A stretch of DNA of 38,481 nt from Desulfobacteraceae bacterium (GTDB lineage Bacteria > Desulfobacterota > Desulfobacteria > Desulfobacterales > Desulfosalsimonadaceae): assembly GCA_021737565.1 (NCBI GenBank), contig JAIPDS010000015.1, positions 1-38,481 of the forward strand, read 5' to 3'. Shown here piece by piece: positions 12,721 through 36,948 of this stretch (position 1 is the stretch's first letter; each line of letters opens with the position of its first letter). Position numbers and translations under genes: made by a program. The notes under the pieces were generated by a model, which ran no database searches, was not told the origin of the DNA, and saw only the letters and a list, made by a program, of their open reading frames with translations.

Positions 12721-12978
12721 AATATATTTTTAAGCCGGTATCAAGAAAATTTGAAAAAAAACAGAATGAAAATTTATCAGTTCAATGCAGCTATGCCAAC
12801 GGAAATCCTGATGACTGGCAAAACCGCAATCCGGTTACCGGGATGCTGCCCAAGGCGGGACGGTCTTTTCGTCCGCTGCATTCGGGCCTGGCATCTGCAC
12901 GGCGTGCTCCGCCGCGTCCGGCGAACTCGCGCACTGTCGTGCGCTCAAACAAGCGCCGGCCGCTATGGCATTATTATA

Positions 12979-13060
12979 CGAGGAAACTCCTTTTTCGCAC
13001 CGCCGTCAGGGCAACGAAGTGCAATTTCGTAAGAGCGCAAAAAAATGATTTCCTTGGAAG
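12979..13060. repeat. Family C repeat, copy 1
   Basis: The block 12980-13060 aligns with 34814-34894, with near identity from GCACCGCCGTCAGGG through ATTTCCTTGGAAG. In addition 12979-13002 is a perfect 24-of-24 match to the reverse complement of 34757-34780. It lies within the composite element 12820-13410. Confidence 0.8.
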
Positions 13061-13120
13061 GCGGTCCTACGGGGCGGAAATTTTCAGGAGCAGGGTTGAT
13101 CTTTTTGCAGGGACTTTCAA

Positions 13121-13312
13121 GGAAGTCCAAGGTCGGGGGCAGTTTTTGAAGCGACATTGAGCGTTTTCGGGAAAAATTCAGCAAATGCCGGAGCGTAATA
13201 ATTTCAAACTGTTTGAGGCCGACAGGCCGAGTTTTTGAAATTTTAGCGGAGGCATTTGATGAATCCCGAAAACGGTCAGGAGCGAAAAAACTGCCCCGAC
13301 CTTGGACTTCCT
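13121..13312. repeat. Family B palindromic element, long form, copy 1
   Basis: About 192 bp with nested dyads. Outer arms of ~26 bp (GGAAGTCCAAGGTCGGGG at left, its complement ending at 13311) are nearly perfect. Inside are GCGTTTTCGGG and CCCGAAAACGG, then a central hairpin GAGGCCGACAGGCCGAG (13215-13231) flanked by ATTTCAAAC and GTTTTTGAAAT. The same architecture recurs at 36768-36948 with a compensated stem. It is nested in the composite element 12820-13410. Confidence 0.8.
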
Positions 13313-21953: not shown

Positions 21954-22053
21954 CCTGCGGGGCGGTTTGTTCACTGCTGACCGTCTTCGGGATTCTGCCG
22001 GGCCGAAGCCTATCCGAAGCCGCTCAATGCAGATGCACAAACCACCCCGCAGG
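21954..22053. repeat. Family B palindromic element, short form
   Basis: CCTGCGGGGCGGTTTGT at 21954 pairs with ACAAACCACCCCGCAGG ending at 22053 (17-bp arms, one mismatch). Inside, CTGCTGACCGTCTTCGGGATTC and GCGGCTTCGGAT-like segments match the inner arms of the other family B copies. It lies 104 bp after the polyferredoxin stop in a 572-bp gap with no gene (21851-22422). Confidence 0.78.
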
Positions 22054-34756: not shown

Positions 34757-34894
34757 CGGTGCGAAAAAGGAGTTTCCTCGCTCCAGGAGCCTCGTCGAGC
34801 CTCAATTTCCGCTCGGAAACCCGCTTTTCCGCACCGCCGTCAGGGTAACGAAGTGCAATTTCGTGAGAGCGCAAAAAAAGGATTTCCTTGGAAG
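34757..34894. repeat. Family C repeat, copy 2, between the beta-barrel gene and gatB
   Basis: An imperfect dyad: 34757-34780 (GGTGCGAAAAAGGAGTTTCC core) is mirrored by the CGGAAACCCGCTTTTCCGCACCG region starting at 34814. The right part, to 34894, aligns with 12980-13060. The element fills the gap between two converging genes and ends 30 bp before the gatB stop codon, so it may help end transcription from both sides. Confidence 0.75.
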
Positions 34895-34924
34895 TCGATT
34901 GCCCGGCTTAGACCTGGTTCGGAA

Positions 34925-36767: not shown

Positions 36768-36948
36768 GGGCAGTCGGGGCGGTTTGTGAGCCTGCATTGA
36801 GCGTTTTCGGGTTAAATTCGGCCGAAGGCTTACGCGTTGGAATTTCAAACTGTTTGAGGGCGAAAGCCCGAGTTTTTGAAATTCCAGCGTAAGCCGGAGG
36901 CCGAATCCCGAAAACGGTCAGCAGGGAACAAATCCGCCCCGACTGCCC
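36768..36948. repeat. Family B palindromic element, long form, copy 2
   Basis: Outer arms GGGCAGTCGGGGCGGTTTGT and its complement ending at 36948 (20 bp, one extra base). Inside are GCGTTTTCGGG and CCCGAAAACGG, then AATTTCAAAC and GTTTTTGAAATT around GAGGGCGAAAGCCCGAG (36856-36872), a 4-bp stem with a GAAA loop. The copy at 13121-13312 has GGCC-GACA-GGCC at the same place. Located in a gene-free gap (36362-37060). Confidence 0.8.

Follow-up and report, generated by a model that had tools for sequence, protein, structure and literature searches.

Hairpin tips with a near-invariant asymmetric internal loop on dispersed palindromic repeats of Desulfobacterota

Two long palindromes in a 38,481-nt stretch of a Desulfobacteraceae draft genome (contig JAIPDS010000015.1, positions 1 to 38,481; here called the window) carry a central hairpin whose structure is kept by compensatory change and whose internal loop is kept by sequence, and copies of such elements lie between genes in both orientations. 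On balance, we consider it probable that both sites are copies of a large REP/MITE-type class whose tip is recognised as a single-stranded DNA hairpin and whose elements are spread by the protein that reads it.

Results

The preliminary description of the window had reported a 4-bp stem with a four-base loop at the centre of two palindromes, GAGGCCGACAGGCCGAG (13215-13231) and GAGGGCGAAAGCCCGAG (36856-36872), and a second-from-loop pair that had changed on both sides. The positions are exact, the small hairpin was recovered in both copies inside hairpins of about 180-200 nt with RNA as well as DNA parameters, and the pair is indeed swapped (C13219-G13226 versus G36860-C36867). The first copy is a B3-subfamily element, a long imperfect hairpin on the plus strand (13120-13312) which belongs to the family found by BLAST and folds end to end with both parameter sets (RNA MFE -108.1 kcal/mol, z -11.7). 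In the stem below its apex 13199-13208 pair with 13234-13243, as supported by the fold and by covariation; the conserved apex internal loop is formed by the 5' strand CTGTTTGA (13209-13216) and the 3' strand GAGTT (13229-13233), and above it stands the apical hairpin GGCC-GACA-GGCC (13217-13228), again supported by fold and covariation, which holds the C-G pair. The second copy, of the B1 subfamily (36768-36948, plus strand), also folds with RNA and DNA parameters and matches the BLAST family (RNA MFE -124.1 kcal/mol, z -14.7). Its stem below the apex (36840-36849 and 36875-36884) and its apical hairpin GGGC-GAAA-GCCC (36858-36869), which holds the swapped G-C pair, have the same two lines of support, and the loop strands are CTGTTTGA (36850-36857) and GAGTT (36870-36874).

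The window contains further related sequences. On the minus strand, at 12924-12952, lies the apex of a truncated family C copy, TTGTTTGAG-CGCAC-GACA-GTGCG-CGAGTT, with stems unrelated to those of B; it is opposite in orientation to the B3 apex and about 285-290 nt from it. A B-type hairpin consisting of arms only, with its centre missing, is found at 21958-22049 (minus strand). Other tip-less B copies occur in the genome of origin (G000) at C19:20670-20779, C82:23382-23472, C35:29895-29985 and C15:24719-24809, with the arms joined at an almost identical point, so that they represent either one deletion that later spread or a separate short subfamily. A second repeat family of 74 nt is present at 12990-13063 and 34824-34897 (93% identical), and also in the gatB intergenic region of genome G001 (L374), where the B element is absent.

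The elements share a tip module made of a covarying stem, an asymmetric 8x5-nt internal loop (5'-CTGTYTGA / GAGTT-3') in which tandem G.A pairs can form, and an apical hairpin that covaries too and mostly ends in a GNNA, GNA or CNNG loop. In the carriers examined this tip crowns imperfect palindromes about 165-180 nt long; between families their stems are mostly unrelated in sequence. Among stem-supported tips the apical insert ranges from 5 to about 28 nt and both strands of the internal loop are constant. G000 has three B subfamilies, with further two-sided differences in the arms (for example AATTTCAAA/TTTGAAATT versus AATTTTAAA/TTTAAAATT), and a fourth family, C, with GC-rich stems, the same loop and one additional nucleotide in most copies. 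About 10 bp below the tip, a second and less strict internal loop (5' GCGTYAA / 3' YYAGC) is present in several genomes. Some apical inserts (L163, L170, L178 and L293-L295) contain further TGAG/CGAG-like blocks nested in the tip, which looks as though the tandem G.A block could be used repeatedly as a building unit.

A 201-bp BLAST query matched about 50 places in G000 (2.65 Mb, 125 contigs), a few of which are one element matched on both strands, and copy numbers are underestimated since the repeats break the assembly. Contigs C19, C42, C43, C67, C81, C106 and C120 end within or beside elements. The same query matched 12 of 40 relatives, and the 43-nt tip core recurred in further families of the order as well as in named Desulfobacterales metagenome assemblies. 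A pattern of the loop only (CTGTYTGAG...CGAGTT) gave 36 matches in G000, 54 in G005, 43 in G034 (a single contig of 4.46 Mb) and 89 in G391 (CP070652.1), with 9-25 in ten further genomes of the phylum sample; the reversed pattern gave about zero in carrier genomes, and according to this control many single matches in other genomes are due to chance. Across Desulfobacterota the tip class reaches tens of copies per carrier genome. In the Bacteroidota sample the matches were mostly background, with G677 showing nine against none in the control, its apical hairpins being paired. The nine tips are mostly of the TCCCG...CGGGA type, as in G391 and G133 (Desulfobacterota), and transfer or convergence between the phyla is possible. 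Plasmids and viral contigs, the latter searched with the B-type core only, gave no match, and the open-access literature searched held no description of the motif or of such repeats in Desulfobacterales.

Covariation was assessed on 63 different cores from many genomes, all of them with an apical insert of 10 nt. Entry into this set required the exact internal loop and at least seven of the ten outer Watson-Crick pairs, and therefore the invariance of the loop and part of the outer-stem pairing are built into the set; pairing of the apical stem played no part in the selection. Paired cells made up 95.7% of the total versus 76.3 ± 0.8% after shuffling, a value that none of 500 shuffles reached, and two-sided changes were seen in 144 cells against 31.5, affecting 12 of the 14 base pairs. 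As the cores are related sequences, these shuffles overstate significance, and safer evidence comes from slid-register controls, in which every register was far worse than the true one, and from the within-family counts given below. The reported second-from-loop pair is G-C in 33 cores, C-G in 23, A-U in one, G-U in one and unpaired in five.

The within-family test was seeded on the arms instead of the loop and covered B3 (16 copies), a family of G034 (18) and B2 (9); family C was left out because its seed matched B copies too. Deviations from the consensus in the apex loop numbered 1/208, 0/234 and 3/117 in B3, the G034 family and B2, respectively, compared with 58/1982, 93/1584 and 50/1146 in stems, 43/543, 60/641 and 27/221 at other unpaired sites, and 10/64, 0/54 and 2/36 in the apical loop. 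Two-sided changes exceeded those expected if the sides were independent (10 versus 0.9, 8 versus 2.7 and 15 versus 1.1). The unpaired asymmetric loop is thus the best-conserved part of the element while the pairs around it change together. Covariation and selection at the level of the fold, as the preliminary description had suspected for the folded strand, are well supported by the margin over shuffles and slid registers, the excess of two-sided changes and the near-invariance of the loop.

The copies are largely intergenic. In G000 none of 25 lies inside a long ORF, and among all fetched loci, chance pattern matches included, 17 of 141 do. Orientation to genes is random (39 versus 35 among co-oriented gene pairs), with 28 copies between divergent and 16 between convergent genes. 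In the region of gatB, a small gene that we take to encode DUF2065, and queA, a conserved stretch resembling a promoter (TTGACA/TATAAT) has a B1 element upstream of it in G000 and a B3 element downstream of it in G005, and neither element is present in the congeners G001 and G006; independent insertion is the best interpretation. Of 14 neighbours in G005 that lie less than 600 bp apart, 13 are inverted, and the spacings fall at 328-351 and 251-278 nt, a BIME-like layout. A C-family element on the minus strand repeatedly precedes a B element on the plus strand by about 290 nt, forming a composite two-hairpin unit (L002, L004, L005, L006, L008, L009, L010, L012, L016 and L023 in G000; 12924-13233 in the window). 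In G034 two elements, L221 and L223 (402 kb and 889-891 kb), stop after CTTTAG and are followed by the same unrelated sequence, and four copies lie within a local duplication; this could mark the element end or a cleavage site. Element boundaries flanked by a target-site duplication could not be established. The intergenic placement, random orientation, partial arrangement in inverted pairs of fixed spacing and shifted position at an orthologous locus indicate dispersed repeats of a mobile type, and dispersal by insertion is well supported.

Discussion

The preliminary description had warned that gene conversion between the arms could mimic covariation. Template switching or arm-to-arm conversion would maintain complementarity with no selection on the fold itself; the arms are long and almost perfect, and a conserved G.G mismatch in them has been healed in some copies (L014, L022), as template switching would do. 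However, such a process should erase the asymmetry of the loop, which persists: the apex loop hardly deviates within families, against 8-12% at other unpaired sites, and it is retained across genomes that share no stem sequence. The predicted loss of asymmetry is not observed, and we regard conversion as an improbable explanation. If the element were instead a duplex-DNA site with two half-sites for a regulator, recombinase or nucleoid protein, and the palindrome incidental, the conserved blocks CTGTYTGAG and CGAGTT would be accounted for. Yet the distance between the blocks varies widely and with no helical phase, and the variable stretch between them is the covarying hairpin itself. With an insert of such varying length between fixed loop strands, a duplex site of fixed spacing is unlikely, and the whole proposal has very little probability.

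A more serious competitor is a structured RNA, in which the internal loop of a transcribed hairpin would serve as a protein-binding site or act in cis on mRNAs. Both window copies fold strongly as RNA, and on paper the tandem G.A pairs beside a 3-nt bulge would resemble a kink-turn (UYU-GA / GA), with a C-stem beside the bulge (CUG/GUU) that lacks canonical pairing. Folding also appears strand-specific. One-sided changes give G.T in 29 cases and A.C in 12 (p=0.012), counted in a fixed register, as counting on MFE folds is biased to G.T by the folding itself; the motif-sense strand is thus probably the one that folds. This excess fits RNA equally, and G.T is the better mismatch in DNA too. Against RNA, orientation to the flanking genes is random and copies also occur between divergent genes, tens of copies with unrelated stems exist per genome, and Rfam gave no match in the window at the gathering threshold; at a relaxed threshold the best at the element was MIR5998, below threshold with 26 of 180 bits and not meaningful. 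An intrinsic transcription terminator was also considered and rejected, given the random gene orientation and the lack of a T-run past the 3' arm at 13312 or 36948. We therefore hold a structured RNA to be unlikely, though it is the most probable of the alternatives.

The apical loops bear on this choice. It had been argued that a GNRA-type loop speaks for RNA; GACA is not GNRA, the family consensus is GNNA, and the argument is not supported. Counted as genome-by-hairpin combinations, 61 of 81 tetraloops are GNNA, with a pyrimidine at the third base in 41 of these and a purine in 20; triloops are GNA in 17 of 25, and a CTTG loop closed by G-C occurs in four genomes. Unusual stability in DNA is known for the loops d(cGNNAg), d(GCGNAGC) and d(gCNNGc), and tandem G.A pairs in the context 5'-YGAR-3' are stable in DNA as well. 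In Streptomyces telomeres, DNA hairpins end in GNA or CTTG loops that show sheared G.A pairing (PMC7205883). Since the loop types are shared with these hairpins, a single-stranded DNA hairpin is preferred, and we favour it over RNA as the selected form with good confidence. Nearest-neighbour energies from the ViennaRNA loop tables do not separate the two readings. As the preferred loop types of RNA and single-stranded DNA differ, the family offers a rare comparative test between them.

The motif strand is distributed unequally between the two halves of the G034 genome (5 plus and 17 minus versus 14 plus and 7 minus, p=0.006; p=0.014 with a local cluster counted once and 0.055 with the terminus also placed at 2.38 Mb). 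The coding strand in the first half, judged from sampled pieces, is balanced, and coarse GC skew puts the origin near position 1, with dnaA elsewhere, at 1.23 Mb. In this one genome the bias suggests a replication-strand preference like that of IS200/IS605 transposition. The GC skew of G391 is too noisy to place an origin.

Among known systems the closest are REP, REPIN and BIME, which are also dispersed intergenic palindromes, often arranged as inverted neighbours, whose stems contain a conserved bulge. For REP, strand-specific recognition of the folded single strand is a demonstrated mechanism (PMC8266576). Unlike REP, of 20-40 nt, the elements described here measure about 165-180 nt, carry neither a GTAG nor a CGTC tag at their foot, have no linked RAYT, and are defined by an internal loop common to unrelated stems. 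Over 143 instances GTAG had no fixed position, CGTC stood at -16 in only 18, and GGAG stood at -19 in 34, mostly of one related subfamily. The elements are thus REP-like in their bulged hairpins and inverted pairs, yet they are not to be filed as REP. With regard to MITEs, the whole element is an inverted repeat and its positions differ between congeners, and no target-site duplication or autonomous partner was found. ERIC/IRU and similar long imperfect palindromic MITE-like repeats are of similar length, intergenic and dispersed by insertion. The likeness is one of general description and implies no relation in sequence, and to our knowledge ERIC does not comprise unrelated stems that share one invariant internal loop. 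The GNA or CTTG caps recall the Streptomyces telomere hairpins (PMC7205883), which differ in lying at chromosome ends and for which no CTGTYTGA/GAGTT loop is reported, whereas the present elements are dispersed repeats. An integron attC site was rejected, as GTTRRRY occurs anywhere in just 18 of 143 instances and the copies are dispersed, not arrayed.

An all-against-all comparison of the genes beside elements revealed no recurrent transposase or mobile gene, and the recurrent neighbours, judged by eye, look like ordinary metabolic genes. Around 30 Y1_Tnp loci, including the sole one in G000, no tip was found within about 1.5 kb. Y1 transposases are present in 15 of 16 high-copy genomes and in 197 of 281 others (p=0.046), a weak co-occurrence.

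Under the preferred explanation, the motif-sense strand would form a single-stranded DNA hairpin when the element is replicated or transposed. The spread and maintenance of the elements may be due to a putative protein that reads the bulged tip, much as TnpA-REP or IS200/IS605 transposases act on their own bulged hairpins. Selection for recognition of the tip would account for the concerted change on the two sides of the central pair.

Conclusions

Sequence is the usual basis for grouping bacterial palindromic repeats. In the present case unrelated stems share one loop, which evolves as a module. More tentatively, and with less confidence than we place in the reading of the two window copies, these repeats could be phylum-wide mobile DNA hairpins defined by shape, a near-invariant asymmetric loop under a DNA-type mini-hairpin, and mobilised by a putative enzyme that reads folded single-stranded DNA. 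Nearly every stem pair exists in dozens of natural variants. In effect this variation would be a mutational scan of the requirements of a hairpin-reading enzyme, and it would offer a route to finding that enzyme.
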